IMG/VR virus record: IMGVR_UViG_3300032291_003679
Span: 62,001 to 126,000 of that record
Source: a virus
Length of the DNA stretch: 64,000 nt
Reading direction: 5' to 3' (one strand)
Of this stretch, positions 1 to 40,939 are shown piece by piece (position 1 is the stretch's first letter; every line of letters begins with the position of its first letter). Made by a program: the position numbers and the translations under genes. Below the pieces are notes generated by a model that saw only the letters and a list, made by a program, of their open reading frames with translations, was not told where the DNA came from and did no database searches.

Positions 1-3000
1 GAAGGTGTAGTCGGGTTTGCGTTTCGACGGCTCTTCCTGTTCTGAAGATTCGTCCCCAGCCCCAACCAATTGACGAAGCGCTCTAGAAATACGACCGCGG
101 CGCTTTTCTCTTCCTGGCTTTGCCTCCGCGCCAGAGGACAACGACATGCTGATTGATGGGCGGCCATCGGGACGCGCTTCCCACGGAAGGTTGTCTGGGT
201 TAACCCCAGCTAGTGCGTAAATATCACGGCGAAGCTTGGGGCTCAGTATGTTTTTTGCCAAGTCCTTGTTTGGGTGCATGATTGCAACAAAAGCTTCAGC
301 GATTGCTTCACGCTTGTTTACATTTCCATAAGATGTTGCAAGGAGAGCTTTGTCTGGGTGCGTCTTAAACATCTCGCCAGCATCACGGCCGGTTAGGTCA
401 ATGAACTGAGAGTAAATTTCAATTGCTTCGTTATCAGTATCGGGATTTGCGTACTCTTCAGCTACGTCTAGGGCTGCACGGTACATAGGGTCGTCGAGCT
501 TGCCACTTCCATAATACGTTTTTGACCCCCCAGAACTATTCGTTTCCAGGTCACGTATTGCTCTGTAGTGAAGCCAGTGGCCGTACTCGTGAATCAACGT
601 CCCATGGAGCGAGCGGTCGATATGCGCCTCTCTGAGTCCTGGTTTCCGATTTGGGTCAAGCTCTAGTGGATACTTGGCCCCTACGTTGTCGTACGATTCT
701 CTGTCGATAAGTGCGCGTGGCGTTAGGCCGACAAAACCAAACTCGCGAGATGCGAGTCCACTAACAAATGGAGTTTTTTCCATGCCACGCTGCTGGCGAA
801 GAAGCTCCATTCTTTCCTTTACGTCAGGACGCCCCTCGTACTCGTTCATTGCATCTCTTGTAAATACACCAACAAGTGGTGCGCCAAAATTTTCAAACAT
901 CCACTTCATTTGTGGAGAAGAATCAAGCATGCTGCGAACCAGTTCTCGAGACGCCTCTAGCCCTTCTGGAGAGTAATCAATTCTCAAGGCATTTTCATGT
1001 CCATCGAGCTGGTCGTAGTACTGCTTTAGATATTTTCTGTACTTTCTGTCTTTGTTCCAGCCAGTTCCAGCCAGGTCATCAGCCCACATCTCAAAATGCT
1101 CTTCTTTACTGGAAGGTACAAGAGCAAGAGACATTTCCTCGGATGTCATTCCTGCTAGCCATTTTGTTGAAGACCTACGTACTTCTTTGCCCGAGGCGTC
1201 TGCTTGCCCGTAGCCCTTAACTCCACGCTTGCCTGGCTCTACTGGTGTGCGTTCTGACACTCTTCTCATTGGAATAAGCGGGCGTTGTCTTCCGGAGCTT
1301 AGGCTTTGATTGTCGTCATCTGAGATGCGGCCAGAAGAAAGACGGTCGCTTTTTCCTAATGCGTCATGCGCAAGGGCAAGCTCAACATCTTTGGCGTCGG
1401 CTTCATAGATTGACTTGCGTCCAGAAGATAATTTCCCGCTAGTAGATACTGCATCAAATTTCTTAACAACCGAATCAAAATCACCGGCATAGACGCGTAC
1501 CGCAACGCCCGTATCAGGGCTTGTCATATCAGTAATATCAAATACGCTTCTTGGTCTATTACGAAACGACTCTGATTCTCTTTGGTTTTGCTCCTGCTCG
1601 TCAAGCCTGCCTGTATGCAGCATCCGCTGAGCCGAGTACATCATATAGGTGAGATGCTTTACGGCTAGTTTTTCTTGCGGCGTCAATGGTGAGTCCGGAT
1701 GGTCAACGATAGAAAACATCGCTAAGTCATTGGCCCATTCTCCATGACGGTCAAAAGCTCTTCCGGTTCCGAGGTGTCCAAATAAGTCATGGGAAGCCTG
1801 AAGTGCTTTACCATCAAGCCCCATATTGAATTTAGACGGGTCGGTTATGCCACCGATGTACCCACGAAGATAAGTACTCGTGCTGGTGCTAATTCTGGAA
1901 CCTGGAACAAAAAGCTCCTCGTCGCCCATCAGTTCTCCAGCGCGACGTGAAAGCTCTCTAAGAAACTGGCTGTGTTTTTTCCATGCCTCAAGATATGGTG
2001 CGGGCAGTCTGTCTTGCGCTAAAGCCCGAAGACCGATGTCATCGCCTCTAATGACGAATCCTTTTGGAGCTACCATTTCCAACATTGGGAATCTAGCTCT
2101 TGCTTCGTCGTTCTCGTACTCTAAAACGGAACCGGAAGTTTCGTTCTTGTATATTTGTCTAGCAACAATATTCCCGTCAGTATCTTTCCATACTGAATCT
2201 TGAAAAACAAGCGTATCTTTCATTGCTTCATCAAGTATTGAAATAACGTCATCACGCTTAGGCAACTCGACGGTACGCCAGTCTCGTTTGTCCGGTATCT
2301 GTTCTGCCATTTGAGGTATCGGGTCAGCAGAAACAAACGGAATTCCGTCTGAAGAAATGTCAATCGAAATTGATTCAAGCAGTTGTTTTCCGGTTTCAGA
2401 AAACGCATCGTCTATTTCAACGTCAAGAAGCGTTTTGCCCGCAATTTCTCTGGTTAAACCTGGAACCTCTCTCTCAATAATTCTTTTTTGTTGGTCGGTT
2501 AGTGTTGTTTCGGTTGTTTCTTCTATTTTTTGTATTATTCGTTCAGCAACTTTTTTGCCGGTCAATACTTCCCTGTTGGAACCAGACTCGGCAGCTTCTT
2601 GCTGAGTTACTTCTATGGGTTCATTAAATGCTTCAACTACATTTGCGCCAGAAGAGAGTCTTGTACTTTCCCCTTCGTCGTCCAGATATATCTTATCGTC
2701 CGAGAATCTTTCATCATTTTTAAGGTCACCAATAGCGCGGTTAATGGCGTCAAGAAGAGACATTCCTTCTTCTTGATACTTGTCCCTTAAGCGCCCGAGC
2801 TCTTCTGATTCAAGCTTTTTTAAATCAGCATTAAATGTGCGAAGTTTGTACCGTGAACCATTTTCATCATATACAAGTTTAAATCTTTTATTTTTTTTCT
2901 CATTGAAAATTTCAATGTCTTTTATTAATTTTTGCAACGTGTTGCGCGTTGCGGTATACCCGTCTCTTCCTCGTGGCAGATATATAAGTAGGTTATAAAG

Positions 3001-6000
3001 TGAGTTATATGCAAGTTCGTCGTCATACACGTCGATGCTTACGTTGGCAGTCAGCTCACCATTTTTATAAATCGGGCTATAAGCATAGCCATGTTTTTCA
3101 ATAGATTCTTGTTTTATTTTTTCTCTGTAATTTTCGTCTTCTTCAAACAGGTTTTGAAGCCTGTTCCATTCTTTGACCATTTCTTCAAAGGTGTCGAACC
3201 GCTTCCCGAAAACGTCTTCGCTGGCTTGCTCAAAAGCTTCCTGGTTGAATCCGTTTTCATCACGGCTCCCAAGGCGTCTGCCGCCATACCCACTATATCC
3301 ATCATGGTATTCATAACGAGCGCGATATTCGCCCATTAGTCCTATGGGCCGTTCTTCTTGATTAAGAATATAATTACGGGCATTGCTTCTTATCTTGTAA
3401 CTAGTTTTTTCATTATCTGAGATGCGGCCAGAAGAGAGATAGTCTTTTATTTCTTGAGGTGTTCTTATTCTGTATTTTTGTCTTCCTCTTTTTTTTGATT
3501 CAAATCTTTCAAAAATTTCAGGAAATTCACCTATGAAGAAGTAGGCATTAGAAAGCGGTATCTCTAGTTCTTGAGACATTATTTTGATGTCTACTTCTCT
3601 GTCTGCATTGTCCTCTGTCCATTGCAGTGTTCTTTCAAATTCGTCTTCGCCGTAGGAAAATGATGCTCTTTTTAGTTTTTTCTTTTTTCGCGCTAAATCA
3701 ACCATTTCGAGTATTGCGTCATACTCTGCTTCTCCAATTCCTCGCGCTCGCGGCATTCGTGTTCCGCGGCGGTTATTTCTCGGAATGGGCCCATATGCTT
3801 CGTCGTAAAGACTGTCGTCGCTCGCAACTCTCCCTGCCATGGCCTCCGGTGAAGGTTTTTTTAGCGGTTCTTTTGTTGGCCTGATTGGTCTAAGACGTCT
3901 TTTGAAAATGTCACCTTGCTCTGTCTCTGTTTCCGCCGATGTTTCGGCATACTCTTGAGGTGTCAAAAAATCAGCTTTATCTTTTTCAAACTTTTCTACA
4001 TCTGTGTTAAATTTATCGTTGTCGGCTTTTAGTTTTGCGTCTCTTTTTTCTTTATCCAAGACGTCAGTAGACCATCTGTTTTCAATGGCTCTATCAATTA
4101 TCTTCTGCATAACCTGACTGGTTGCAAAAGCGTCAGCATCGGCGTTGTGGTGACCCTCACCTAATTCAACATCCAAATACTTAGTTATTGCAGCAAGACT
4201 GCTGGATGGTTTCTTGTTTCCATCTCTATCGGTTGTGTAGGGGCCCTCTGGGCTCTCTTCGCTCCACACGGGCAACGTCATTGCACTTATGTCTCTTGTG
4301 TCAAGATAACCAGAAGGACGCCAATCAATCCCGCTTTCACTCAATGCGTCTTCTAGAACGTTCTTGTCAAACGTGGCATTCTGGACGCCAATGATTGCAT
4401 TTGGCCCAATAAACTCAGCAACTTGCCTATGGGCTTCTGCCATTGGCATCTGCGTAGCGAGCCATTCGTTCGTTATTGGATTGCCGTCTGCGTCCTTAAG
4501 GTTTTTCAAGGACCATTCGCCGAGAGATTCTTCGGGGTTCATGTATAAATTTAAACGACCAATTTCTTTGCCGTTCTTTATTCTTGCTAGACCTATTTGT
4601 ATTGGCTTACCATTGCTTGACGCTTTGCCAAATTCGTCAAAAGTCAGACCAGTTGTTTCGTAGTCAAGGAAGACCATTTCGGTTTCGTTGTATCGCTCTT
4701 TAAATTCTTCCCACGAACTGACGCCATCAAACCTCTTCTCTGCGTCACCAAGGAAAGCACCAAGCGTTGGTTCGCGTGGATATCGTGGGGCCTTACCACT
4801 GCTCAGTGTTTGCCGTGAATCAGTTGCAGAATCCGCATTGTTGTAAAGTTCACGAACCTTCTCGCTAGACATAGCCAGATATGCGTTTTCAGTAAGAATT
4901 AGCTTTTCTGGGTCTATGTCCCTGAAACCCATGCTTTCCCAGTACTCCTTGGAGCCAGGGGTTGATTCAAGGCTTATGCCAGTATTGTCGTCATTTGCTA
5001 TTTTTAAAATGTCACGGAAAACAGAGCTTCCCAGGTTGTCTATCCCGGATTCTTTTCCATAGCTTGCCATATGGTGGATGAATAGATTGTCGTTATCCCC
5101 TCTTCCGCCTCTTCTAAAACGTGCAGCACCAACAATATTATTGTTTGAATCTCTAGCTACTACTAACGACCTGTCAACTGGGTTTGGTTCGCCAAAAAAA
5201 TCAGAATCACCAAATACTTTGTCCATCTGTATTTTTGCTTCAGCAAATCTTTGAGGAACTTTTCCATCTGGATACTTTTCTTTAGATAGCTTTTTGTATG
5301 AATCATCTGCTTCTTTTTGAAGATTGTAAAAAGATTCTCTGATTTTTTCTACATTGTCGTATATTGCGTCACTGTAAGCATCGACATCAAAATCGCCGTC
5401 ACTATTAAGGAATTCAGGGTCGTCTTCGTCGATTATTGTTTGCTCAACAATGCTGGTAGACACGTTTTCGTCGCGGGTGTTTTTGCCACTAGATAGGCTT
5501 CTTGAACTGTCGCGAGAAGGTAATGCTCCAGCAAGTTCTCTTAATGGTCTTGTATAGAAAAATTGAGCACCAGCATCATGAAACACTTTATCCGCAGTAG
5601 CAAAGTCAACCAATTCTTCTGCTGTTGCTTCTGTTTCAAACAGTCCAGTATCTTCATCTTTGCTATATAAGGAAGATATTTTTTTTCTATCTTCGTCGGA
5701 GAAAAGTTCTGGTGTTTTGGAAATGGTGTCATCAATTAGTTTTATAAACCCTTGTTTATCTTTTTCACCAGCCCATGAGAAGCCGTTTTTCGGCCAGTGA
5801 ACAGCGCCAGTTGAACCGCCACCAGATGCGCCCCATGTAATTATTGAGCGTACGTCAAGCTCTTTGTATATTTGCTCGTTTCGAGCATTGAATGTAGACC
5901 CTATGCCTTGTCCTTGGGCGCGGTTCGTGACGTAGAACGAATCGTGTGACACCATCCGAACGTCTTTGTCGTCCCCCGATATCTGCATAAATGTTCTGTA

Positions 6001-6984
6001 CGATGTTGCAAGAGCAGGTGTTCCATCGTCTCTGGAAACGAATCTTCTCTTGTCCTCGTCGTCGAACATGGCGATAAGCCTGTCGTTGTACTCTGGAAGT
6101 GGTTTAATTCTAAAACCAATCTCCAGCTTGGAAAGCAAGTCGCTTTCTTCTAGATTTCTTTCGTACAGTTGTAATTCGTCTTGTTCTGCAAGGTCTTTTT
6201 CAGAAACTTTATCTATTTTTAGAGACGTGGCCCATTCTGGTTGTGGGACTACTTCTATCAAGACCCTTTTACCAATATTTAGCTGCTTCCCATCATCGCC
6301 CGTAATAATTACGTCTTTGTCTAGCGTCATTTCGCCTTCAAATATTTTGGCGAATAAATCACGAACTCGTTGTTTTTCTAGTTTTCTTTCTTCATCGTCT
6401 TGAATTAACTGAACCGGCTTTGGTTCAGGCATCCCTGGTGGTCTCGGCGGTTTTGGTCTGGTGTCGAGCTCGTATACGTCTGCTTTTTGAAATTCTTCTG
6501 CTGAGAGCTCTTCAAAAAAATCATTTATCGATTGTTTTTTGTCTTCGCTTAATGGCGGTTGCGCATCAACTATCTCTTGATATTTTTTCCCAGAAGAAAG
6601 CGCTGAGCTTCGGTCACCCTGTTCGTCGCCGCTTGGTGAAAAAACACTTCCTTCAGAACGACGAGCAGGGCTCGCAGGTTTTCCGCCCTGGCCTTCAATT
6701 CCTACCCAGACCGGCTTTGTAGTGCCTTCGTCGGCCCAACCGTCACCGTCGACATCTCTACGGCTTCCTGTTGGGTTTCTGGTGCCGGGCTTGCCGCCTG
6801 TTGGCAGGTCAAAGCCCCTTCCGCCTCGTCCTCTGCGTCTTTCGCCAATGGTGGGCCTGTTTACTGCCCTGGAACCCAAATAGCGGCCTAGTCGTCCTAG
6901 GGCAGCCTTTTGTTCCGGGCTTGAATTTGCACCGCGACGGGATTCCTCAAAGGGAATGGAGAACTCTTGATTATCTGCAGACAT
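1..6984 (-). CDS. Giant LSSG-linked polyprotein A, partial: GNAT-like regions, DEDDh exonuclease, zinc peptidase
   Basis: An open frame of 2,328 codons from ATG 6984 that leaves the window on the left, so the C-terminus is missing. The N-terminus is Arg/Gly rich with a calcium-loop-like DVDGDGWADEG (residues 77-87). Then come an acetyltransferase-like stretch (NRAQGQGIG, about 354-362), a second GNAT-like region (about 560-700), a DEDDh 3'-5' exonuclease (FLDYETTG with D774 and E776, NATFDKN near 870, HHNADAD from 945), an unassigned region, a His-rich module HDLFGHLGTGRAFDRHGEW from 1732, and a zincin motif HEYGHW at 2132. LSSG occurs nine times (129, 497, 727, 1183, 1443, 1852, 1882, 1895, 2282), mostly between these domains. 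No clear ribosome-binding site precedes the ATG. It is last in the minus-strand run holding primase, WhiB and the small-terminase candidate. I infer a processed, head-packaged set of enzymes; the exonuclease and zincin calls are firm, the GNAT calls moderate. Confidence 0.85.
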   Translation of the reverse strand, partial: MSADNQEFSIPFEESRRGANSSPEQKAALGRLGRYLGSRAVNRPTIGERRRGRGGRGFDLPTGGKPGTRNPTGSRRDVDGDGWADEGTTKPVWVGIEGQGGKPASPARRSEGSVFSPSGDEQGDRSSALSSGKKYQEIVDAQPPLSEDKKQSINDFFEELSAEEFQKADVYELDTRPKPPRPPGMPEPKPVQLIQDDEERKLEKQRVRDLFAKIFEGEMTLDKDVIITGDDGKQLNIGKRVLIEVVPQPEWATSLKIDKVSEKDLAEQDELQLYERNLEESDLLSKLEIGFRIKPLPEYNDRLIAMFDDEDKRRFVSRDDGTPALATSYRTFMQISGDDKDVRMVSHDSFYVTNRAQGQGIGSTFNARNEQIYKELDVRSIITWGASGGGSTGAVHWPKNGFSWAGEKDKQGFIKLIDDTISKTPELFSDEDRKKISSLYSKDEDTGLFETEATAEELVDFATADKVFHDAGAQFFYTRPLRELAGALPSRDSSRSLSSGKNTRDENVSTSIVEQTIIDEDDPEFLNSDGDFDVDAYSDAIYDNVEKIRESFYNLQKEADDSYKKLSKEKYPDGKVPQRFAEAKIQMDKVFGDSDFFGEPNPVDRSLVVARDSNNNIVGAARFRRGGRGDNDNLFIHHMASYGKESGIDNLGSSVFRDILKIANDDNTGISLESTPGSKEYWESMGFRDIDPEKLILTENAYLAMSSEKVRELYNNADSATDSRQTLSSGKAPRYPREPTLGAFLGDAEKRFDGVSSWEEFKERYNETEMVFLDYETTGLTFDEFGKASSNGKPIQIGLARIKNGKEIGRLNLYMNPEESLGEWSLKNLKDADGNPITNEWLATQMPMAEAHRQVAEFIGPNAIIGVQNATFDKNVLEDALSESGIDWRPSGYLDTRDISAMTLPVWSEESPEGPYTTDRDGNKKPSSSLAAITKYLDVELGEGHHNADADAFATSQVMQKIIDRAIENRWSTDVLDKEKRDAKLKADNDKFNTDVEKFEKDKADFLTPQEYAETSAETETEQGDIFKRRLRPIRPTKEPLKKPSPEAMAGRVASDDSLYDEAYGPIPRNNRRGTRMPRARGIGEAEYDAILEMVDLARKKKKLKRASFSYGEDEFERTLQWTEDNADREVDIKIMSQELEIPLSNAYFFIGEFPEIFERFESKKRGRQKYRIRTPQEIKDYLSSGRISDNEKTSYKIRSNARNYILNQEERPIGLMGEYRARYEYHDGYSGYGGRRLGSRDENGFNQEAFEQASEDVFGKRFDTFEEMVKEWNRLQNLFEEDENYREKIKQESIEKHGYAYSPIYKNGELTANVSIDVYDDELAYNSLYNLLIYLPRGRDGYTATRNTLQKLIKDIEIFNEKKNKRFKLVYDENGSRYKLRTFNADLKKLESEELGRLRDKYQEEGMSLLDAINRAIGDLKNDERFSDDKIYLDDEGESTRLSSGANVVEAFNEPIEVTQQEAAESGSNREVLTGKKVAERIIQKIEETTETTLTDQQKRIIEREVPGLTREIAGKTLLDVEIDDAFSETGKQLLESISIDISSDGIPFVSADPIPQMAEQIPDKRDWRTVELPKRDDVISILDEAMKDTLVFQDSVWKDTDGNIVARQIYKNETSGSVLEYENDEARARFPMLEMVAPKGFVIRGDDIGLRALAQDRLPAPYLEAWKKHSQFLRELSRRAGELMGDEELFVPGSRISTSTSTYLRGYIGGITDPSKFNMGLDGKALQASHDLFGHLGTGRAFDRHGEWANDLAMFSIVDHPDSPLTPQEKLAVKHLTYMMYSAQRMLHTGRLDEQEQNQRESESFRNRPRSVFDITDMTSPDTGVAVRVYAGDFDSVVKKFDAVSTSGKLSSGRKSIYEADAKDVELALAHDALGKSDRLSSGRISDDDNQSLSSGRQRPLIPMRRVSERTPVEPGKRGVKGYGQADASGKEVRRSSTKWLAGMTSEEMSLALVPSSKEEHFEMWADDLAGTGWNKDRKYRKYLKQYYDQLDGHENALRIDYSPEGLEASRELVRSMLDSSPQMKWMFENFGAPLVGVFTRDAMNEYEGRPDVKERMELLRQQRGMEKTPFVSGLASREFGFVGLTPRALIDRESYDNVGAKYPLELDPNRKPGLREAHIDRSLHGTLIHEYGHWLHYRAIRDLETNSSGGSKTYYGSGKLDDPMYRAALDVAEEYANPDTDNEAIEIYSQFIDLTGRDAGEMFKTHPDKALLATSYGNVNKREAIAEAFVAIMHPNKDLAKNILSPKLRRDIYALAGVNPDNLPWEARPDGRPSISMSLSSGAEAKPGREKRRGRISRALRQLVGAGDESSEQEEPSKRKPDYTF

Positions 6985-14175: not shown

Positions 14176-14179
14176 CGTT

Positions 14180-29000: not shown

Positions 29001-30175
29001 GAATCAACATGCATCTGCTGCAGGGCCCTAACTGCCAGTATTGCTGCATCTGGGTCTTCAGAATCAATACCAAGCGCGTCATATATGCGCGCTGCTTCCG
29101 CTTTCTGACGAGCAATATCATCTTGCCCGCGGATTGCACCGTTCTTGAAGAGACGCAAGTTCTCCTCAACAGGGATATCTCTCCACGATGGTGGCTTAAA
29201 TCTGTCACCAGAAATACTGTCCCAGTATGCAACTCGACCAAGAAAGGCTGGGTCTGCTATTTGCCTGGTTGACTTGCTGTATTGGTCGTTGTATAAAAAA
29301 TTAAAGAATGTTTTTGCATTGTTTCTTAGGCCCTCATATTGGCCTTCTGATTCAAGCTTTGCTGCTTGTCGTGCGGCAAATCGGGCGAACTTTGTTGGGC
29401 TAAAACCAAAACAGTTAGAGCCAGTAGCGTCAGTGAACTGGTTTGCAGCAGGCGTTCCAGGAGGGCATCTAAATTTGTTATTTTCATCGCGAAGAATGCC
29501 AAATACTGCAGCAGCACGTGAAAGCAGAGAGCCGCCTGGGACTCTCGATTCAAGACTGCGTCCAGGAAGCATCTTTTTCTCTATAAGGTTGTCTTTATAT
29601 TTACGAATAGACTTTTGTTTTTCTTCGTAACTAAGACCAGCGGCCATGCCAAAGGGGTCGACTATTTTTTCCGACTCTTGTATAACTTCGTCCGTCTTCG
29701 GATTTACTTTGTACTTGCTGAGCTTAATTGATGGCTTCGACCTATACATCTGAAGCATCTCTTCAAAGCTTGTTGGCGCATTTTTGTCTGGCTTAATCCA
29801 TCCAACGTTTGGCTTTGCGTCCATTCCTTCGCGCGACTGAAATGATGGACTAATGACGAGGGTGGAGCCAGGCTCCCATGTTGCCGCCCCTTCCCATCGA
29901 TAACCAAACTCGTTTGACTCCACGCCAGGCAAAGTGCCGCCCGTAAAGTCTCGTTTCTTTCCATCTGTATCTTCGTAGGTTTTTACCCTTATGCCGAACC
30001 CTTCCGTTATAGCTTTTACGGCTATATCGGCCTGAAGGCGGTTTGTTTCGATGGAAGCATTAATCGACTGCTTGAATCTGACAGCCTTTTCATTGAATCC
30101 GCCGCAGCAAGAGGTCGGCACCATGAGTCGTGCTGCAACTATTACTCTTTCCCGCGTTATTGGGGTATTCGCCAT
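23000..30175 (-). CDS. Giant LSSG-linked polyprotein B: zinc peptidase-like and ParB-like domains
   Basis: 2,391 residues, in the head block 14 bases after the scaffold-like gene. Visible in order: an N-terminal region with TSCCGGF; the module FRCPPGTPAANQFTD...SNC near 236; a zincin motif HEIAHH at 603 inside a helical domain; a long charged coiled-coil section (about 780-1050); an LSSG-rich linker zone (sites 1304, 1311, 1406, 1446); a ParB/sulfiredoxin-like domain with DGYILDGHHRWGA around 1860; a last LSSG at 2018; and an unassigned C-terminal domain with SERVAYGRGNSL. LSSG sites separate the recognisable parts as in polyproteins A and C. I infer head-packaged cargo cut by the prohead protease. 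The zincin and ParB-like calls are by motif; substrates are unknown. Confidence 0.85.
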   Translation of the reverse strand: MANTPITRERVIVAARLMVPTSCCGGFNEKAVRFKQSINASIETNRLQADIAVKAITEGFGIRVKTYEDTDGKKRDFTGGTLPGVESNEFGYRWEGAATWEPGSTLVISPSFQSREGMDAKPNVGWIKPDKNAPTSFEEMLQMYRSKPSIKLSKYKVNPKTDEVIQESEKIVDPFGMAAGLSYEEKQKSIRKYKDNLIEKKMLPGRSLESRVPGGSLLSRAAAVFGILRDENNKFRCPPGTPAANQFTDATGSNCFGFSPTKFARFAARQAAKLESEGQYEGLRNNAKTFFNFLYNDQYSKSTRQIADPAFLGRVAYWDSISGDRFKPPSWRDIPVEENLRLFKNGAIRGQDDIARQKAEAARIYDALGIDSEDPDAAILAVRALQQMHVDSGGRAGWDIEVLNASGEGAALLLDSEIERFCEVRLESIPGWRGLSNEEKSRLLKSDFDRYKYTQRALFESLIDQFVKDPESMRGIGRIVYRFDSGDEAGTSVYRDAPSISPRLKPDGTPVLDRDGNPVMGKTPGELRTQIHVNMGMILANQETMLPDMLPNERLAISAVGARSEAEGRLAVADFLVNADYSARGMAGLLDGVYGFSSHIMIHEIAHHKQAQVFIEKIQDEIDEMGFIRVPIIKDGVVVGSRNVDSIYALSGSDIMSIMTDVADSINLEALDSAMERLKKIAPLAGSYPRDVYTEGSEVWALEAAAEIWALRERGIIYGEDVDAALEWMDGLSFSKSSRARAESDDTADLESLDDVFRIPDDTIVPEDMPDDVIEETLEDRDVRLASELRAELAEFKTSFAELAEDDMFSEAAIIASQRDDASRRLESYKEFEIDESLADDERIFMERAKSEAIRDAQRELDFHSKKYDEASKIWRKKFGVGASGEKKRFDETVRSIRESEGLLDPGEMAEIARKADLDDLRERIKAMPEKKIVQKLVDEEVRLSTLDPASDEFRKLADEIEVIRDQYIENLKSSGDKRTKAQIKKELDKKITDIISPPPKPKKKFKNAKDAADHGARERRRVKANAEQKKAMKELGDVSESDVGKMLDPVIQTRAGRAINKRNARLKRLGLEIDPMSSAEGDVVQQVEKLLIPTMEAIDKTSVADPFDIEAIIDFDPSKLKGKVEGREIDLEQFVSGRVITSRTVKTDMPARGTKDPKTGRTPRRVILSVREGDRGLFPTTGGDTEQKFVAPPGKIRIIGRDADGTIRAEISYQKDTVQVVDSMAENLSKNKTDAIWAQSHGKKIQAMVDKYVTERRASGDTFPGPRSDYDDATVTASRVSVDEIIDAGGSFGEGFDEVPPHLSSGRTTLSSGDTLGKPATRPERTNSRNTSMSSTVRNVKDALGGGRGDGSISRGDIHPAVAKLIAETPEELLIVRASETAYRMHEGFDRRVRVRATDEDIERLSSGAGIRSPFSSASDEDLRTSRRAERLASISPQQRASRSLSSGRIIDSQENLKIRRNQEKEVATKALDIFNKVIEDGKNIDDMTQDEINQMFGGLARRSARLSISEKHPNLYEVDDVPTAIAMMMLGHHVEVKEQDIRLTEQAQKVFEDEVKNIAKDHIKNGHWKWEQYKSKYMNENRDFDFDDPATIKKMEKDYVGSYQADLCALYDPTKNLMCSGHIGIDREKMPQTNGRTKGHDTAAVRALVAGRAAGKFEPLGKIERNRKLEVEFADDLDKDIAKENLERAQKGKEPLSDEDTPKMLYKLIAKKHSIGNELGEKTAAQHREESYESLSDEAKQWLYANTNWNDVEVNLETPFINWLNKMIKVEDPDNGPAVRRKQVAPGLAAPSQQQLVASKVDGTAQTMQEVAVAKAEAVRKANPGVSAEEFKKLFLDEMNKEWFMQPILATKDGYILDGHHRWGALIVANRSLPEELQMPLNINEVQTDIVEGLTLGKVFQDVWGIKVAKLGAENDWVEGRLPGAQGIEDISNEEIDAIEAFLIENGPRLIDEKYSEGDFIQLGSVGLRNDAEYSQTLKVRQSLVETRRTSAISSERERQLDEIIRAADIERSNSLSSGRANMGRLAKIRRSQATLKTRDMESDMAPSGDTVGLSAENYVREYLARIGIPDSVAPDQLPVSGYLIHKSHIDSKRKDVMKDGSGNLRPDAVFEIGDQDVVGDGLTALGDMEIVLRPGVSERVAYGRGNSLSTAHRPVRLNSRNREDVADAILNADGVNGEKTRQEAFMNLLSASLNNDFSNINATRGKKGKLANSFDSNLPEGSSREPFEAQILGGFDMADIEQVNVPFKKIEQEAEKEDISDIVNTKTIAERLRAAGFSPEEIEYFYSIGGGQMMNSESMAMLRNYRASQKIKNSFSERGFNNVKFAHPRGFNIEDPRSHSKTAGKGESVESVLAKSISSEIIAMAKEMLKDMKKSSKPRITSTYGGRL

Positions 30176-31876: not shown

Positions 31877-34800
31877 TTATTTATCTGGATTCTTTGAATT
31901 TTTCTTGTCCACCCAAAGGCTATTGCCGGATTCGACTCTCTCTCTTGCTGTTCTTAACTGCTCGTCGCTAAATATGTCATCAATTGTGTATCTTGTTCCA
32001 AACATCTCATTAAATCTGTTAACCATTGACTGCAGTTCACTACCCGAGAATCGTGGCTCGTTACCCTTACTTGGGGTCCACACCGAACCCCTGTTCTGCG
32101 TGGCCGCTTCTAGGGTGTACGCCAGGTCGGTAGCTTCGATTATTTTGTTGCGATTTTCTCTGGTATTAAGTTTTGGAAAACTCTTGTCGATAAATTCGTA
32201 AAGAGCCTCGTAGACGGCGTATTTTGGCCTCTTCATCTCCGTGTCGAACCTCTCGCCAGTATCAGATTCTTTCCATACCGATTTTGCGTCTGGAAGAACT
32301 CCATTGCGAATCATTTGAGCAATTGTTGCAGTAGGAATTCCTTTTCTTCTCCACGCATCATTGATTCCGATGGAATCCGTTCCAAAGGCTGATGAAAGTC
32401 GCTCCTGTAGACCCTTCTTCCATTCTTTTCTATCAATTCCAAGATAATCAAGAAGCGAATCAAGGTCGAAGTCTTCTATCGCGGTCTTGTCATCTCTGAT
32501 TATTTCCCCAGAATCATCTATAGAGCCTTCTTCTGGCAGAAGCATGTCAAAAGATTCACCATAAAGGTCTATCTCTGCCTCAGAATCTCCTCTTGTTGCA
32601 CTGTCTGGATAAAAACGGCCCGAGGCTCTAAATTTAGATGTTTCACTTACTTCTCCAAGTTGAACATATTCCTCAGGGGTCATTGATTGATTTTCTTCAA
32701 CATCAAACCAATATGGGAACGCATCTTTGCCAAACGTTTCAATAATGAATCTGTCACGCATATTTGCGCGGCCAGCATTTTCAGATGCCAAATCAATTTG
32801 CGAAATGTCTTCTATGATGTCGCCCTCTGGGGACTGCACTACTTTTTTGGCTTCATTTGCAGAAACTGGAGCAAAGTATCTCCACGCTGAAAGCTCTTTC
32901 TGCTTACCGAGTTCAGCAATCAAGAGGCGCACAGCGTCGTGGTTGATTCCAGCATCTGGTTCTCTCATCTTTGCTGCGTTAGCAGGGCTCAACCCAAGCA
33001 TCTTAGAGATTTCATCCCTTGTTGCTGGTCGTGACTGTGTCCACCTGATTGTCGAACCGTCTTCGGTATTAAAATTTTCTCTTGAAGTAAATTCTGTTGG
33101 GATTCTTATCGTGTCAGCAAGCTTGTCAATAGAGAGCATCCACGTTTCGGCCGACGGATTCTCGTTTTTGTTGTTGTCACTAATTTTGCCAATACGCACA
33201 CGTTCTTGACGTGCTTTCATCGCTTTGCCAACGTTCTGCATTGCGCCGCGAGTGCGTGATTGACGCACCGGCACTGAAAGCGAGTCGTCATCTATGTCAA
33301 TCGCTATGCCGCGCTTACGTACGCCGTCCCATGCCTGCATGGCGAACTGAAGTGCTTGTCTGTTTTTGCTGGAGTTTGGGTCTCCGTTTATTCTCAATCC
33401 GGCGAGCTGTTGTGCGCTTAGGCTACCTCCGTAGATATTGCTTCCAGAAATTTTTCTGCTTCTACGTGTCAGGCGTCTGCTTCCATCGGTGGTTGCTCCA
33501 CTAGACAGTGTCATTCCTAGAACGTCGTCGATGTCACCTTCGTCAACTACTTCATCATCGTCGTCACCTTCTGGAAGTACGAAATCGTCTTCTCCAGGTT
33601 TTCCATCTTCACCGAATTCGTAATCTTCTTCATCAATTTCAGTAATGATGCCTTCAACTTCTTCAGAATCACCATCATCATCAACTGGTACAGGAACCAC
33701 AATAACTTCGTCGTCTTTTTCATCAGTAGGACGAGCTGGGAATCCATTTTCCAGTTCTGAAAGCGACATGGCATTAATTGCCTTGTACCAATCTGGAAGA
33801 GGAATCCCGTCCTTATCACCGAAGGCTCCTCTATCAAGCTCTGGTGGGATATGCCCATCTACAACAGCTTGCTTCATTGCATCACGTATTGCTTTTGTTC
33901 GCTCGTCATGCAAGTAATAAAAGAAACCAGCATTGCCTGGGTCTAACATTTCTTTTGCGCGGGAGAATGCAACATGGACTAGGTTTCCCTCTTCCATGAA
34001 GCCAATACCAGCTTCGCCTTGCGCCAAGTTGCTTGGAAGATTCTGGGACGGGTCTCCCATGTCTTCTGCTACTGCGACGAATCGAGACTCACGACCCTTA
34101 GAGAGCTGCATTGTTGTGATTTCAACATCTCCGCCCCCAGTCTTGGCCGCATCGCGCACTGCTTGAGCAATTTGTGCAAGTATCTCAGTGCTTTCTTCTA
34201 GGGTTTCACCTTTAATAACAAAACCGTCATAATGGCGACGCCCAGCCTGTCCTTCAATTCTAAAGCCACGCTCAGCTTCCTGCATTACTTCAATTTTGTC
34301 CTGAAGTCCAAGCTGAATGATTGCTTTTTCAAGGTCCCTGCGGTATCTGCCGTTGTTTGAGCCGCGACCTCCTGGTGGAGTATTTACCTTTTGACTTCCG
34401 TCTGGCCTGTCTATTGGTCGACCGGTGTCCACGCCGTCGCCGGTTATTATTATTCGACCAGTTGCTTTTCCTGGGGATTTGTCACTACCCCCTTCAATTT
34501 CAAGAGCAGCATAAACAGCTTGCTTAAACGTGTCGTCAACGTTGGGAATAATGAAAAGCTTTTCTCTCTGTGTTGATTTAGCTTTCCATGCGGACTTTTG
34601 TCTTCCGGCTATTTCTCTTATTTGGTCAACACCAACATTCCAGTTATCGAGTTCCATCGTCTTGCGTTCTGGAATTAAAACTGCTGGGATTATGTCAATT
34701 TTTTCCTTGCCCTTGGCTTTGCCTTTTTCGTGAACCCCTTTAACGACGGTTCCCTGAAGGAGTTCTAGCATTCCCTTTGTGCCAAGAGCTTTGCCTGTTG

Positions 34801-37800
34801 GGTCATTCTTGGGTGGCTTCATTATCAAGTTATAAGCAGAACGTGCTTGCTGATATCTTGCTTGACTAAGAGCCTTTTGTAGCGCGCCAGTTGTCCAGAC
34901 GTTGCCTAGCCACCCAGATGCCTGTGGTTTACCGAATCGTGCAACATAATCTCGCTGCTGTTGTGGTGTTCGGTTAATAAAATCAAGATGCTTCGTAAAG
35001 GTAACTAGCTGCTCCCACTTGGATGCTGGAATAATTACTTCCGGCAACTTTGGCATGCCGCGTTCGTCTTTCTTAACAGCCCTGCTGTTAATGACGATAT
35101 TAATAAACTTAAGAGCTTCGTTGATTATTTCGGCATTTGTTCTACACAAAATCATCGTCGGCAGATTTCCCTTGTCGGCCTCTTCGTATCTGTCGACTAT
35201 TCTTCCTTCCTTTGGCGCGTAAAGTTTATCTCTTAATTCCTTAAGGGCTTTATCTTGCTCTCTTCTGCTTAGGGATGAAATATTTAGCTTCTCCGTGGGG
35301 GAAGAATATTTTTTCTCAATTTTAGCAATCAGGAGCTCTCGGGTTGCATCATCAAGTTCTTCAACAGGGAAATTTCCGCGTCTGTCTTCTTTTGGTAACA
35401 ATGGGTCAAACTGTCTATTAATGACCGTTTGTGCCTGACCCTTAACATGCTTCCATGCAACTGGTTGTGGAACCCCTTGCTTCGTTAGATGCAGGTTCTG
35501 TCCACCCAAAACAAGGTTTGTCGCATGACCGATAACTCCGCCGTATCTAAATGACTCAGTAATGCTCTGCGCATACTCCGGCTGTAGTGACTCAAGAATA
35601 TTTTTTGAATCACGGAATGCGTAAACTGCTTGCCTGTCGTCGCCAACAATTATAATTGGAAGTTTATCCCTATTTCTATCAAGGACAGTTTCCAGAACTT
35701 CGTTAGTATCTTGCGATTCGTCAACCATAAAGGCACCGAGAGGATTCTCTGGTGTCGCTACTTTTTTGCGTAAAGTTGCTCTGGACGTTTTCCCGGCCTT
35801 GTCCGAAATCGTCGTAACAATCCACTCTTCTCCATCGGCAACATACGTATCGCCTTCACTAAGAGATGACGGAATGGCGACTTTTGCTCTTGTCTGATTG
35901 CTTGAATGGGTAATTAAGCCTGGGTCTGTTCTTAGGTCTGGGTCCGTCAGCATCCAAAGTTTTGCTATTAGTTCCATTGATGGCATAACGTTAGAGTCAC
36001 CATCTGAAATTTGGTCAACTATCGACTGGACCGAATCAATCCATAGCTTTGGAATTGCGCTTTCCGGCAAAATGCTATCTACTCCGCCGGGCTTTTTCCC
36101 ATGGCCGCGCGGCGTATCTAAGTCTTCTATGGCCTTTTTGGGCTGCATAAAATGTTGGGCAGTAACTTTTTCTTCTTTCGAAAGCCCCCATCTTCTGAGG
36201 GCGTTGGCAAGAAGGTCACCCATTTCAGAAAACTCTACGAACTCACCGTTTGGAAGTTCGAATCCATCAACTTCTACTTCAACTTTTGTTTTTTTGCCTT
36301 TTTCATTAAGGACTGGCTTGCCTGTCGTGTCTACGACAGTTACCATCTTTTTTTTCTTTTTTTGGTTTGGCCACTTGTTTATTTCAAGATGTTTTACAAA
36401 ATCTTCACCCGACTCAAGCACTACCCATCCCAATGCCTCTAGGCCTGGGTCTTCGCCTACAAATGTTTCTATTGTTCCATCAAAAGTTTCCCTGACAAAG
36501 TTTTTACCAATCATCTTTTCGACGTCTGGTGTTTCTTCTTCGCTTTTCCACTTCGGATTACGTCGCATGGACTTTTTGCTATCGCGGGATTTGTTTAGCA
36601 TTACCAGCTTCCGGCGCATACCTTTTCCATACCTGGCGTCACCTTGGCCAAGGCGTAGCGACCACTGCCACAATTTGTCCGTTGTTGCAATACCAGTGTT
36701 TTTGGGGAATTCAACTTCAGCTTCTAATTGGTTTTTAGTGTTAAACACCGTGTAGAAAATGTTGCCAGTTTTATTAGCTTTTGCTAAGTCTGCTACCGTT
36801 TCTTCAATCTTGTCTGCTGGTATTTTGCTGAAATCAACACCGTAAGTATCTGACAGATACGCTAATTGTTCAGCCCTGCGGACATCGCCTTCTGGCCAGA
36901 GTTCAAACTCTCTCTGAAGGGCCCACGCAATGCTCTTTAGTGTTGTTGTTTTGCCCGTTCCTGCACCAGCAAGAACGCTGAAAACTGCTGGATTTCTTTT
37001 ATGTATAAGCGACATTGCTACAGCTATGATGTCACGCTGTTCGTTAGTTGGTTCGTCCTTAAGGGCGAACGCAAGCCCAAGAGAGACTTTCTCGTCTATC
37101 CGTTCAATGTCTGCGACACCTTTTTGTTTGCCCTTTGGTGTTCCACTAATCGGGCCATCTTGTTTGCCGCTAGCTAACGCACCAGACGGAGTTATAACAA
37201 CGCCGTCCTTGTTTTTGGCTGGGAGCCCTTCGAGTGACCGAGCGAGTTCTCTTTCGGAAGGGCTTGATGGAACAAAATCGTCAAAAGCTTCGGAGTCAAG
37301 AAGGTCTTCTAGCGGTCCTACTATTGTCGTTGTCGGTTTGATTGGTTCAATGTCTTCGTATCCTGCAAGCATTGGCACTTCATACCATGAGTCCTCTTTG
37401 CCCTTGCGCTCATCGTCAGGGATGCCGGCAAGACGACGCATTGTTGCCGAACGGTTAAGCAAGTAGTCGTTTGCTTGCTGAGCCTGAACGATTGCTCTAT
37501 GAATTGCGAGAGGGTCTGAACGTAGCTTCTTTAGCCAGCTATTTAGGTACAAAAGATGGTCTTCGCGTACTGTTGGCTCCAGACCCATTGACCCCATTGC
37601 GAATGCTGAACCTATTTCTGCAATCAATTCTTCGAATGCGTACTGGTCATCGCCGAATTCACGGCCCAGAGTTCTGTTTAGTCTTGTTGGGTGAGATGTC
37701 CAGTGAATTGTCTCATGCATTGCCGTCCCATAGAATGCGAGGGCATTCTCAAACTGTTCAAATGCTGGCATGTGAATCTTGTCAGTGGATGGACGATAAA

Positions 37801-40800
37801 AGGCTTGCTGGCCTTTTGATTCGACAAATGCTGGACCTATTTCTTGGATTACGTTTTCAATATCCTGCAACCGCTGCTCTTGGTTGATGTCAGTATCTTC
37901 AACTTCGTAATACTTGTTAGGAAGATTAGAAACATCATCAACGTTGTATACGGTTTGAACAACGTAATAGCGACCCATCTGGATTGCTTGTCCATCAGCG
38001 TTTATTACAGTTCTGCCATCACGTGGCACAAGAATAGAAACGCCGCGAGCACTAGCTCCAGGCTTTAATTTTCCGCCTAGTTTTTCCCATTGCGTTCTGC
38101 CTGCCCATCTGTTTGTTTTGTAGCCGCGACTTTGCGCAGTAAGCAAAAGGGCTAGCTGATTCATGCCCTGGTAAACACGATTTTTAGTTGGGTTACGCGC
38201 AAAGATTTCCGGGTTGCGCCACGGCATCTTCCATTGTTTTGTTTTGTCAGGGTTATCAATTAAGTCTTGCAGGACTTCGATAATCTCCTCGGCCATTCTC
38301 TTGTACATTTCCGCAAGGATTGGAGAGTCTTCTGGTATTTCTGCTTTATCTGGAAGTTTTCCGGATGAAAGTGCAGCACTAATTGGGCCGTCAAATTTTC
38401 TTATCTCGTTGTTGGTTCTCTTGTTTTTTGACTTATTTAGATATTTTGCGTAACCGCTAGAAAGCTTTTGCTCAGGGTCGTCTGGTATTGCTACGAACTC
38501 TGGCTTTCGGCCGCGGGCAAGTTCGAGGTTCTCTCTATCCTGGTCTTGCTGCATGATGGACGTGACAAGGTCCCTATCAGGAGGGATGCGAACGAACCCT
38601 GGCTTTCGGCCGCGGGCAAGCGGAGTGCTTCTGTCGATGACTTCTGGCTTCTCGTCTGGTATCTCTACAAATTCTGGCTTTCGGCCTTGGGAAAGACGCG
38701 TATTTCTATCGAGAACCTGTGGTTGCTTCGGCTTTTTCTTAGGCTTATCTGCCTCCGCTATTTCGTCTTCAGCCATCTTCTCGACACGATTCATATACTT
38801 GTCAAGGTCAGCAATAGCCTTCTTTAGCTTCTTTATCTGGTCAGCGTCAGTAGCGCCGTCCAGCACTCCCTGTAGTTCGTCTCTTTGAGATTCTGCGGCA
38901 CCGTATTTTTCGGCTGAATCAACATCTGGGTCGTCTATTCGCGGAAGGTCTAGCGGGATTTTCCCTGAAGATAGACGCTCGGTCCGAGCAATAGTTTCTG
39001 ATTCTGGCTTAGAAAGCTGACGGGGTGACGGCTTTGGGTTACGAATTGAGCCAGGACCATCTGGAGTTGGGTCCGGAGTAGCAAGTGGGACGCCACGAAG
39101 GAATAGACCTTCACCGACGACTCCGTTGAGGTTTGCGTCACGAGCTGTGAATGGGTCAAAGTCTTCTGCCCCGATTGAGGTAAAGAACCTTCCACGTGAA
39201 CGACCGCCTCCAATGTTAGGACGGTCGATTAGGCGACTGCCGATAGCGCGTCCGAGGCGGTAACCAGCCGCCTTCCACTCTATGTCATTCTCACCTAGAG
39301 ATTTTTTTTTTAGATTATCAACAGCCGTATCGATGGCTTCAATCAGCTCAAAGCTGACACCAGAGGTGATGACGATGCCGTTGACATCCACAAAGGAGTC
39401 GACATTGTGATAGTCAAAGATTGGGTCTAGAGCTTGTTTTACTTGAAAGGCAAACTGAGGCACCACTGGAAGCAAGTATGGCTTCTGGTCGAAATTGTCA
39501 TCTTTTGTTGAGCCAAACTCGCTGAGAAGCTTAAACTTACGACGCTTCTTGCGGCGTCTCCCAACAACTCCACGGAGTGCTGCAACTGCAAGTTCTCCTG
39601 GATACTTTACTTCCAGGTCAGCAATGTAGTCCTCTTCGTTGAATTCTTCGTCAAGTTCATAAGTCTTCTTAGATGCTGTGTCGCCGGTGACTACTCCCTT
39701 GGGAATTACGGCAAATCTGCACTTGCCTTCTGGCTCGACATCCATGGCGATTATCTTGCAAGAATTTCCACCTTGGTAGAAGACGCAGTTTGCGCACTTA
39801 ACGCCAATTGCAGCAACTGGGTTTTCAGCTGCAGGCTTATAGCCAGCCCAAACGCCGTCAGAATCCTCGTTGAAACGACCGTGGCGCTTAACAATCTTAA
39901 GAAGAGCATCTCTTAAGTCTGTTTCTTCTTGGTCGAGATTGTTTTTGTCAAACTCTGGCTGATTTCTTTCATCATCCATGTCTTCGTATTGGACGGGGGG
40001 CAGAGGAACCATACGGTTGCCGTTTTCTCCAGGCTTAATAGCAATTGGCATCGCCGGCATTTGTGATGGGCGAATCACTCTTTGTGGCTCATTTGCAGGG
40101 ACACCAGGTGCCAGCATTGGCATATTCTGCATTGGCGCAACTGGCTTGCGTGCTGGCATCACCACAATCTGCTGTGGTGGACCAAACATGTAGCGTCCGC
40201 GGTTCCCACTAAATCCGCACTTGTAGCGACCGACTTCACCATTGTCCATTCTGCGGGCAAATGTAATTTCGTCGTCGTTTACGTCCATCAGTGAAACTTT
40301 TGCACCAAGGATTGTAGCTAGTTGCTTTTCTATTTCAGCCTTGTCGATGGCGTCTTCGTCGTCTTCCATCATCGCCATCATGACGCCACTGGCGTTGTCG
40401 TCAGACTTAACTGAAATTGTTCCAGTAAGTTGATTTGCTCCATGTAAAACGGGCGAGACCTCGTAAAGTTCAAGTTCGTAAATAACGTTTGCTTGAGACT
40501 TTTGGTCAAACTGGGCCCGAAGGGTCTTGTATCCGATTGACCATTCCTGCTCTTCTCCAAAGAAAGCAACCATGGCAAAAGCTTCCCGACCTTTTTCTGA
40601 ATTAAGGTTGAATTGCACACGGGCGAACAGGCCACCAATGCCAGCCATTTTCATCTTAAGTGGCAAGCGATTGTCCGTATTTGGAACTTCGTAAATCTCT
40701 AGAACTTTACCGATTGGGTCATTCCAGCTATGTCCCCAGACAACTCGTGGCTTACGGCGTTGGAGGCTCTTGGCGAATGCTCCACTTGCAACAATGTCAC

Positions 40801-40939
40801 CAACGGAGTCTTTGTTACCAATACCAGCAACGAAACACTCAACTATGCCCTGAGCCTCATCAAGGTTGATGTTTCCGCCCTTCGAAGAGAGCGAGTTACC
40901 AAGCGAAGTTGACTTGTATTCGAATAGTTCAGATGGCAT
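31877..40939 (-). CDS. Giant polyprotein C: S78 prohead protease fused to ArdC-like and UvrD-type helicase cargo
   Basis: 3,020 residues. Residues 1-175 are an HK97-type prohead protease (family S78): RVVWGHSWNDPIGKV with His70 and EEQEWSIGYKT with Ser134. A Cys module follows (VKCANCVFYQGGNSC, about 390), then a Ca-loop-like DANLNGVVGEG (about 605). Next is a linker zone with LSSG at 656, LSQG 749, LARG 774 and 807, and LSSG 826 and 857. An ArdC-like antirestriction region (about 880-1120) has its zincin HETIHW at 1075. After LASG at 1255 comes an SF1A UvrD/Rep helicase (GAGTGKTT from 1325, DESQDT from 1740, AFSRAKEML near 2320). LSSG at 2478 precedes an unassigned C-terminal domain. Portal lies upstream, scaffold and capsid downstream. 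Protease and helicase are certain; self-processing of the fusion is inferred. Confidence 0.92.
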   Translation of the reverse strand: MPSELFEYKSTSLGNSLSSKGGNINLDEAQGIVECFVAGIGNKDSVGDIVASGAFAKSLQRRKPRVVWGHSWNDPIGKVLEIYEVPNTDNRLPLKMKMAGIGGLFARVQFNLNSEKGREAFAMVAFFGEEQEWSIGYKTLRAQFDQKSQANVIYELELYEVSPVLHGANQLTGTISVKSDDNASGVMMAMMEDDEDAIDKAEIEKQLATILGAKVSLMDVNDDEITFARRMDNGEVGRYKCGFSGNRGRYMFGPPQQIVVMPARKPVAPMQNMPMLAPGVPANEPQRVIRPSQMPAMPIAIKPGENGNRMVPLPPVQYEDMDDERNQPEFDKNNLDQEETDLRDALLKIVKRHGRFNEDSDGVWAGYKPAAENPVAAIGVKCANCVFYQGGNSCKIIAMDVEPEGKCRFAVIPKGVVTGDTASKKTYELDEEFNEEDYIADLEVKYPGELAVAALRGVVGRRRKKRRKFKLLSEFGSTKDDNFDQKPYLLPVVPQFAFQVKQALDPIFDYHNVDSFVDVNGIVITSGVSFELIEAIDTAVDNLKKKSLGENDIEWKAAGYRLGRAIGSRLIDRPNIGGGRSRGRFFTSIGAEDFDPFTARDANLNGVVGEGLFLRGVPLATPDPTPDGPGSIRNPKPSPRQLSKPESETIARTERLSSGKIPLDLPRIDDPDVDSAEKYGAAESQRDELQGVLDGATDADQIKKLKKAIADLDKYMNRVEKMAEDEIAEADKPKKKPKQPQVLDRNTRLSQGRKPEFVEIPDEKPEVIDRSTPLARGRKPGFVRIPPDRDLVTSIMQQDQDRENLELARGRKPEFVAIPDDPEQKLSSGYAKYLNKSKNKRTNNEIRKFDGPISAALSSGKLPDKAEIPEDSPILAEMYKRMAEEIIEVLQDLIDNPDKTKQWKMPWRNPEIFARNPTKNRVYQGMNQLALLLTAQSRGYKTNRWAGRTQWEKLGGKLKPGASARGVSILVPRDGRTVINADGQAIQMGRYYVVQTVYNVDDVSNLPNKYYEVEDTDINQEQRLQDIENVIQEIGPAFVESKGQQAFYRPSTDKIHMPAFEQFENALAFYGTAMHETIHWTSHPTRLNRTLGREFGDDQYAFEELIAEIGSAFAMGSMGLEPTVREDHLLYLNSWLKKLRSDPLAIHRAIVQAQQANDYLLNRSATMRRLAGIPDDERKGKEDSWYEVPMLAGYEDIEPIKPTTTIVGPLEDLLDSEAFDDFVPSSPSERELARSLEGLPAKNKDGVVITPSGALASGKQDGPISGTPKGKQKGVADIERIDEKVSLGLAFALKDEPTNEQRDIIAVAMSLIHKRNPAVFSVLAGAGTGKTTTLKSIAWALQREFELWPEGDVRRAEQLAYLSDTYGVDFSKIPADKIEETVADLAKANKTGNIFYTVFNTKNQLEAEVEFPKNTGIATTDKLWQWSLRLGQGDARYGKGMRRKLVMLNKSRDSKKSMRRNPKWKSEEETPDVEKMIGKNFVRETFDGTIETFVGEDPGLEALGWVVLESGEDFVKHLEINKWPNQKKKKKMVTVVDTTGKPVLNEKGKKTKVEVEVDGFELPNGEFVEFSEMGDLLANALRRWGLSKEEKVTAQHFMQPKKAIEDLDTPRGHGKKPGGVDSILPESAIPKLWIDSVQSIVDQISDGDSNVMPSMELIAKLWMLTDPDLRTDPGLITHSSNQTRAKVAIPSSLSEGDTYVADGEEWIVTTISDKAGKTSRATLRKKVATPENPLGAFMVDESQDTNEVLETVLDRNRDKLPIIIVGDDRQAVYAFRDSKNILESLQPEYAQSITESFRYGGVIGHATNLVLGGQNLHLTKQGVPQPVAWKHVKGQAQTVINRQFDPLLPKEDRRGNFPVEELDDATRELLIAKIEKKYSSPTEKLNISSLSRREQDKALKELRDKLYAPKEGRIVDRYEEADKGNLPTMILCRTNAEIINEALKFINIVINSRAVKKDERGMPKLPEVIIPASKWEQLVTFTKHLDFINRTPQQQRDYVARFGKPQASGWLGNVWTTGALQKALSQARYQQARSAYNLIMKPPKNDPTGKALGTKGMLELLQGTVVKGVHEKGKAKGKEKIDIIPAVLIPERKTMELDNWNVGVDQIREIAGRQKSAWKAKSTQREKLFIIPNVDDTFKQAVYAALEIEGGSDKSPGKATGRIIITGDGVDTGRPIDRPDGSQKVNTPPGGRGSNNGRYRRDLEKAIIQLGLQDKIEVMQEAERGFRIEGQAGRRHYDGFVIKGETLEESTEILAQIAQAVRDAAKTGGGDVEITTMQLSKGRESRFVAVAEDMGDPSQNLPSNLAQGEAGIGFMEEGNLVHVAFSRAKEMLDPGNAGFFYYLHDERTKAIRDAMKQAVVDGHIPPELDRGAFGDKDGIPLPDWYKAINAMSLSELENGFPARPTDEKDDEVIVVPVPVDDDGDSEEVEGIITEIDEEDYEFGEDGKPGEDDFVLPEGDDDDEVVDEGDIDDVLGMTLSSGATTDGSRRLTRRSRKISGSNIYGGSLSAQQLAGLRINGDPNSSKNRQALQFAMQAWDGVRKRGIAIDIDDDSLSVPVRQSRTRGAMQNVGKAMKARQERVRIGKISDNNKNENPSAETWMLSIDKLADTIRIPTEFTSRENFNTEDGSTIRWTQSRPATRDEISKMLGLSPANAAKMREPDAGINHDAVRLLIAELGKQKELSAWRYFAPVSANEAKKVVQSPEGDIIEDISQIDLASENAGRANMRDRFIIETFGKDAFPYWFDVEENQSMTPEEYVQLGEVSETSKFRASGRFYPDSATRGDSEAEIDLYGESFDMLLPEEGSIDDSGEIIRDDKTAIEDFDLDSLLDYLGIDRKEWKKGLQERLSSAFGTDSIGINDAWRRKGIPTATIAQMIRNGVLPDAKSVWKESDTGERFDTEMKRPKYAVYEALYEFIDKSFPKLNTRENRNKIIEATDLAYTLEAATQNRGSVWTPSKGNEPRFSGSELQSMVNRFNEMFGTRYTIDDIFSDEQLRTARERVESGNSLWVDKKNSKNPDK
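38464..38695 (-). repeat. Tandem GRKPxFVxIP protein repeats in polyprotein C
   Basis: Three near copies of L-x-x-G-RKP-x-FV-x-IP follow one another: LSQGRKPEFVEIPDE, LARGRKPGFVRIPPD and LARGRKPEFVAIPDD (about residues 749, 774 and 807), the last followed by LSSGY at 826. The DNA copies are also similar (CTTTCGGCC stretches), so they arose by local duplication. Each includes a degenerate form of the LSSG site. Confidence 0.85.

Follow-up and report, generated by a model that had tools for sequence, protein, structure and literature searches.

A repeated LSSG motif at unit borders of giant phage proteins, shared with the tape measure protein: a candidate processing signal

Introduction

Polyvalent proteins carry embedded peptidases (MPTase zincins) that have been proposed as their processors, and they have been likened to the polyproteins of RNA viruses (Iyer et al. 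2017, PMC5512222). In phage P1, the N-terminus of DarA is removed by the prohead protease (PMC12810830), and DdrB is reported as processed (PMC5512222). The tail tape measure proteins (TMPs) of T5 (pb2) and lambda (gpH) are proteolysed as well (PMC10038345, PMC10713586). Here we analyse a 64,000-nucleotide stretch of viral DNA, referred to as the window, which covers positions 62001–126000 of the 158,021-base record IMGVR_UViG_3300032291_003679. It encodes three giant proteins (A, B and C) along which the tetrapeptide LSSG is repeated, and a TMP that carries the same motif. That polyvalent proteins are processed has been proposed, but no cleavage signal for it was known; a candidate signal is now visible in sequence.

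Results and discussion

LSSG in the giant proteins and the TMP

The proteins concerned and the exact copies of the motif are as follows (window coordinates; motif copies are named by protein and residue).

1–6984, minus strand: giant protein A, 2328 visible residues of 3479, running past the window edge; the N-terminal tag region is followed by units set apart by LSSG (GNAT-like, DnaQ exonuclease, unknown HDLFGH unit, zincin)
23000–30175, minus strand: giant protein B, 2391 residues; motif-free head of ~1300 residues with zincin motif HEIAH, then five LSSG
31877–40939, minus strand: giant protein C, 3020 residues; S78 prohead protease, tag region, then units joined by LSSG linkers (ArdC-N, MPTase-PolyVal, UvrD-like helicase)
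57802–62607, plus strand: TMP, 1601 residues, carries the motif
6589–6600, minus strand: LSSG A129
5485–5496, minus strand: LSSG A497
4795–4806, minus strand: LSSG A727
3427–3438, minus strand: LSSG A1183
2647–2658, minus strand: LSSG A1443
1420–1431, minus strand: LSSG A1852
1330–1341, minus strand: LSSG A1882
1291–1302, minus strand: LSSG A1895
130–141, minus strand: LSSG A2282
26255–26266, minus strand: LSSG B1304
26234–26245, minus strand: LSSG B1311
25949–25960, minus strand: LSSG B1406
25829–25840, minus strand: LSSG B1446
24113–24124, minus strand: LSSG B2018
38963–38974, minus strand: LSSG C656
38453–38464, minus strand: LSSG C826
38360–38371, minus strand: LSSG C857
33497–33508, minus strand: LSSG C2478
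57907–57918, plus strand: LSSG TMP36 (site 1)
59620–59631, plus strand: LSSG TMP607 (site 2, low-complexity linker)

Exact LSSG occurs nine, five and four times in the 7,739 residues of A, B and C visible in the window, as compared to 0.085, 0.071 and 0.062 copies expected from composition (~0.2 in all). A sequence-only reading of the window had reported the same 18 copies and a chance expectation below one, and the recount agrees with it. Full-length A holds 11 copies, bringing the total of the full giants to 20, and LSSG is the commonest tetrapeptide of A, of B and of C. The variants LASG, LARG and LSQG named in that reading are likewise present. The 18 copies are encoded by 17 different 12-base sequences, and selection consequently acts on the peptide, as had been argued from the codons. 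A DNA-level repeat or recombination site is ruled out by these codon differences, while the counts together with the conservation described below rule out chance or composition as the source of the motif.

A restriction of the motif to the giants is ruled out as well. Across the open reading frames of the 158-kb record (~48,900 residues), no exact LSSG was found beyond A, B, C and the TMP, i.e. in ~38,000 residues, and the TMP copies lie at residues 36 and 607. The sequence-only reading had mentioned neither these copies nor the zincin metallopeptidases treated below. Site 1 (~residues 36–55) reads [LF][SA]SG in 11 of 14 aligned TMPs, the three exceptions being one lineage, and site 2 is kept in all 13 TMPs that cover the region, each time in a low-complexity linker. 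Homologs of neighbouring genes mostly lack the motif, with 8 carriers among 153 portal proteins and 5 among 69 homologs of protein E (one lineage). The C-terminus of the TMP (window 62280–62600) contains a SDHATGSAYDL...RHLHV stretch that resembles M15-type peptidases by sequence, where Pfam reported none.

Conservation of the motif and shuffling of the units it separates

S78 scans of viral contigs in IMG/VR returned hundreds of relatives (labelled by G- and L-numbers where needed). Among 46 non-redundant C proteins, nearly all long ones carry the motif as LSSG, FSSG or LASG, and the pooled context is [RSK]-[LF]-[SA]-S-G-[RAK]. Over dozens of these relatives the linkers diverge, while the four motif residues stand out as a sharp peak of conservation: 2,966 instances were aligned between relatives at ≤75% identity, and identity was 0.57–0.72 at the four positions vs. 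0.29–0.45 to either side of them. One alignment of 12 sequences has just three invariant columns, two of them in the motif (S610 and G611) and the third at E704; L608 and S609 come close to invariance.

The segments between the motifs are exchanged as units. Relative G004 holds those of A in a different order (A 1–504, 722–1007, 1895–3019, 1429–1887, 3121–3478), and the ends of reordered A units in relatives fall at or near LSSG positions. Homology breakpoints, after clustering, numbered 1,250; of these, 15.6% were no more than 10 residues away from a motif as opposed to 4.7% after motif rotation, an enrichment of 3.3-fold that none of 300 rotations reached. AlphaFold predicts folded blocks at ~A 131–480 and ~A 731–940. 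The copies at A129, 497, 727, 1443, 1882 and 1895 fall in stretches with a predicted local distance difference test score (pLDDT) below 50, which partly reflects a shallow alignment, and A1852 lies in a loop; these placements agree with the earlier claim that the motif sits between rather than inside domains. The first motif is nearly fixed in each giant, at ~107–137 in most A proteins, mostly at ~620–830 in C and at ~1220–1350 in B, so that each giant consists of a conserved head followed by a variable array. Together, these data support the view that LSSG marks linkers between exchangeable units and is under peptide-level selection, and a polyprotein with linker recognition sites is well supported.

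The linkers are rich in serine and glycine and the units shuffle, as would be expected if LSSG merely reflected the make-up of flexible linkers or a hot spot of recombination. This explanation is made very improbable by the sharply bounded conservation of four residues, the differing codons and the concerted switching described below.

Concerted switching of the motif between lineages

Sister lineages repeat other motifs in their own giants, namely FSSG, LRSSG, GLASST, GF[SA]SST and GARSxS. In a clade with a short C protein that lacks LSSG, the repeated motif is LRSSG (G032), GLASST or GLSSST (G031) and GARS[TQE]S (L353, L355), and these variants share one place, before KSPRTEIT. The TMP follows the giants of its own genome in several distinct motif classes: LRSSG recurs in the TMP of G032 and GLASST in those of G031 and G033, while giants with FSSG, GF.SST and FSSxT are accompanied by TMPs with FSSG (G042), GFASST (G049) and GFSSRT (G060), respectively. 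A motif profile derived from the giants scores a mean of 15.4 bits on the TMP of the same genome vs. 10.1 bits upon permutation (maximum 13.25; 0 of 20,000), although permutation tests ignore phylogeny and the relatedness of the genomes inflates this one. As giants and TMP switch in concert, one trans-acting reader of the motif is indicated, most simply a protease.

In a sister clade (L331, L350, L352, L353, L355), C has only ~1,100–1,300 residues and no HExxH, but the S78 domain, the DxDxDG tag and an own linker motif are kept.

Taken together, the giants are probably LSSG-linked polyproteins whose units are separated by one trans-acting reader that acts on the TMP as well. Besides the phylogenetic caveat given above, several points weigh against this assignment. 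The motif is kept as [LF][SA]SG in the partner for 0.53 of the aligned instances, that is, about half are not; some lineages (G054, G055, G066) show no clear repeated motif; and some neighbouring motifs are only 7–40 residues apart, hence not every interval can be an enzyme. Moreover, we infer cleavage from the sequence pattern, and a non-proteolytic reader (a docking or ejection adaptor, or a modification) would be expected to give an identical one. A motif that an adaptor binds for docking or ejection, without cutting, would agree with conservation and concerted switching, which require only a reader, and the two conserved TMP copies could serve as docking points. Still, the motif sits in disordered linkers where units meet and the fixed heads are free of it, which fits cutting better, and we regard the adaptor as unlikely. 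Alternatively, a host protease may read the motif, with motif classes reflecting host groups. Switching between sister clades could follow host shifts, and a title cited in PMC10038345 refers to host involvement in T5 tail protein cleavage. The differences between LSSG, LRSSG and GARSxS would, conversely, demand large changes in the specificity of the host enzyme, which renders this alternative improbable.

Candidate readers: the S78 domain and the zincins

Separation of the units by a phage protease, the preferred reading, leaves two kinds of candidate enzyme in the giants. The features that bear on the choice are the following.

40415–40846, minus strand: S78 protease domain of C (residues 32–175), Pfam PF04586, E=3e-11, His70 and Ser134 present
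41071–43176, minus strand: portal protein
16978–18342, minus strand: HK97-like major capsid protein (MCP), without LSSG; its delta/core boundary reads LTSREIK
38036–38311, minus strand: ArdC-N domain of C (877–968)
37493–37861, minus strand: MPTase-PolyVal zincin of C (1027–1149), PF18818, E=4e-40
28355–28369, minus strand: HEIAH zincin motif of B (residues 603–607)
577–591, minus strand: HEYGH zincin motif of A (residues 2132–2136)
4111–4674, minus strand: DnaQ/RNase T exonuclease unit of A (771–958)

By domain content, A, B and C are polyvalent-type proteins in the sense of PMC5512222. Several disparate enzymatic or DNA-binding domains are combined per polypeptide (S78, ArdC-N, MPTase-PolyVal and UvrD-like helicase in C; DnaQ and a weak GNAT match in A), peptidases are embedded (PF18818 in C, HExxH in A and B), and the giants of this portal-terminase phage lie among virion genes, with portal and MCP as neighbours. 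No database match was obtained for B.

In the sequence-only reading, LSSG was the site of the S78 prohead protease, and the units were taken to be packaged and then to come apart inside the prohead before injection. Its observations that one giant begins with S78 and that two of the three, B and C, are encoded between portal and MCP were confirmed. The proposed function holds insofar as LSSG behaves as the recognition site of one trans-acting factor, judging from the conservation spike, the breakpoints and the concerted switching; S78 as the reader and cutting in the prohead are not established, in view of the TMP motif, an MCP without LSSG and the zincins. S78 with intact His70 and Ser134 heads C and occurs in every relative, the relatives having been found through S78, and the score of the domain against TIGR01543 is under the family cut-off. 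With an S78 region from a Gordonia phage as query, the viral contigs gave a single 19-residue match.

The MCP, which would be the usual substrate of an S78 protease and is HK97-like with an extra N-terminal region, offers a partial look-alike of the motif, which was followed over four MCP types. The expected delta/core boundary reads L[ST]SREIK(-SIG) in all LSSG/FSSG genomes seen, GLGSS or GLGAS(-SIG) in G057 and G049, and SLRSE(-TIG) in G056, G062 and G063. L[ST]S in the first of these types, GLGSS in the G057 lineage and the loss of L-x-S in the LRSSG/GLASST lineages would be in line with reading by S78. However, the look-alike lacks the invariant G of the motif, and the boundary that has lost it is of the same VETRSIG type in G031, G032, G051 and G053 despite their differing motif classes. 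On the MCP evidence, S78 is neither proved nor eliminated as the reader. The boundary type changes with clade (relatives L094–L110, L371–L381, L457–L467).

The TMP is a tail component and is assembled separately from the prohead. As it carries the motif, a protease confined to the prohead is insufficient as an explanation. Nor does the distribution resemble a cleavage motif shared among head proteins only, of the T4 gp21 or phiKZ gp175 type: the motif is found in giants and tail TMP and is largely absent from portal and MCP homologs. We therefore consider cutting by S78 in the prohead rather unlikely.

Alternatively, the reader may be one of the zincins within the giants, the likeliest being the conserved N-terminal zincin of B; it would process giants and TMP, both in cis and in trans, either during assembly or once they are injected. 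Of the 55 giants listed, 54 matched the HExxH pattern, as did B proteins from the clade with switched motifs, and MPTase-PolyVal and ArdC-N are hallmarks of polyvalent proteins, whose MPTases were proposed to act before or after injection (PMC5512222). A zincin would also account for the TMP, as TMP and giants would come together in the cell after injection. Pattern matching apart, a Pfam family match is limited to the zincin of C, and the LSSG sites are distant from the zincins in sequence; we hold this option as possible, if tentative. S78 and zincins both occur throughout, so that presence or absence does not separate them. Based on the MCP, TMP and zincin evidence, the two are kept as near equals, with the zincins if anything ahead, and host protease and non-proteolytic adaptor are ranked lower.

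Proposed model

In this model the phage is contractile-tailed and related to actinobacterial phages, and its giants are effector polyproteins of the polyvalent type. Each would comprise a fixed motif-free head (~110 residues in A, ~650 including S78 in C, ~1300 including the zincin motif in B) and, behind it, a variable array of units with disordered linkers between them. A single trans-acting reader, in all probability a phage protease, would recognise LSSG and so separate the units, and would recognise the TMP at two sites as well; the processing could be done by S78 in C or by one of the zincins of the giants. If giants and TMP both leave the virion into the cell, processing most likely takes place at an ejection or post-ejection stage, or during cytoplasmic assembly.

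Further observations on the giants and their surroundings

6655–6924, minus strand: tag region of A (21–110, with DxDxDG loop); relatives have a homologous segment in C
39065–39217, minus strand: corresponding tag region of C (~575–625)

The tag regions of A and C have in common an EF-hand/dockerin-like DxDxDGxxxE loop directly before the first motif, conserved in relatives, and could possibly serve as a packaging or docking tag. Three short repeats with variant motifs (LSQGRKPEFVEIP, LARGRKPGFVRIP and LARGRKPEFVAIP) are located at C ~740–830 (window 38453–38720). In A, a helix-like peptide (DAxxxDIELALAxDxxG) is conserved in five genomes within the ~30 residues between A1852 and A1882 (window 1330–1431). 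The adjoining conserved unit (window 1432–2647, core HDLFGHLGTGRAFDRHGEWANDLAM) has no known fold match, and a structural model of the A 1440–1900 unit gave no PDB match at E <0.001. A 676-residue protein encoded near the MCP (19831–21861) holds one RLASGR and shows, by eye, an N-terminal likeness to B (CCG; RCPxG...FTD...SxCxxKLFG-like element). A tRNA-Arg (tct) lies between phage genes at 14644–14719.

Comparison with known systems

MCP and portal place the phage near isolates of Bendigovirus (Gordonia) and Cantarevirus (Brevibacterium) and near Gilgamesh (Streptomyces). These isolates have a related MCP (33–47% identity) and portal, and the interval between the two holds large proteins or genes that resemble cargo (RNA ligase, ART). 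S78 is mostly a separate, shorter gene there, whereas it heads giant C here. Among isolates, B has no homolog and A a single weak match, and an LSSG array is lacking; the motif is absent from the 4624-residue giant and the TMP of Gilgamesh, and the Cantare TMP has one LASG.

In phiKZ and SPN3US a single S80 prohead protease likewise cuts several head and ejection proteins at a short SxE/AxE type motif (PMC5694885, PMC10052503). Cleavage in those phages serves chiefly to strip propeptides from single proteins. The sites described here are numerous and internal to giant multi-enzyme proteins, the protease family is S78, and the TMP bears the motif too. The Dar/Ddr internal head proteins of P1 are similar as packaged anti-restriction proteins, but neither a repeated tag, as far as reported, nor a giant array is found among them. 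In T5, pb2 is cleaved after R1127, close to the C-terminal end, whereas the marked TMP sites lie near residues 36 and 607 and have their motif in common with the giants.

The closest parallel is provided by the polyvalent proteins (PMC5512222), which combine ArdC-N, MPTase, helicase, nuclease and GNAT-like domains in portal-terminase phages as found here. Their assemblin-like peptidase is described as always C-terminal, while S78 is N-terminal in C. A linker recognition motif was not found in the searched parts of that paper, and here a repeated, co-evolving tag common to the TMP marks the borders. A literature search on LSSG and phage, with subscription journals outside its range, gave one unrelated paper; a prior description is possible. 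The concept of processed polyvalent proteins is known, and the motif code, the link to the TMP and concerted switching appear new.

The candidate signal is common to head-region giants and a tail TMP, and its form switches jointly in both from one lineage to the next; protease, timing and unit borders thereby become testable. It bounds many uncharacterised units that are probably injected, and it provides domain borders for annotating much unknown sequence in an abundant, widespread and uncultured phage group. Going further, and close to an even question in our judgement, the phages may use a lineage-specific linker code, i.e. a single phage protease, one tag in everything ejected, co-evolution of tag and protease and cassette exchange between polyproteins, amounting to a plug-in cargo system. 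If so, DNA phages would possess a linker-code system comparable to the polyproteins of RNA viruses.
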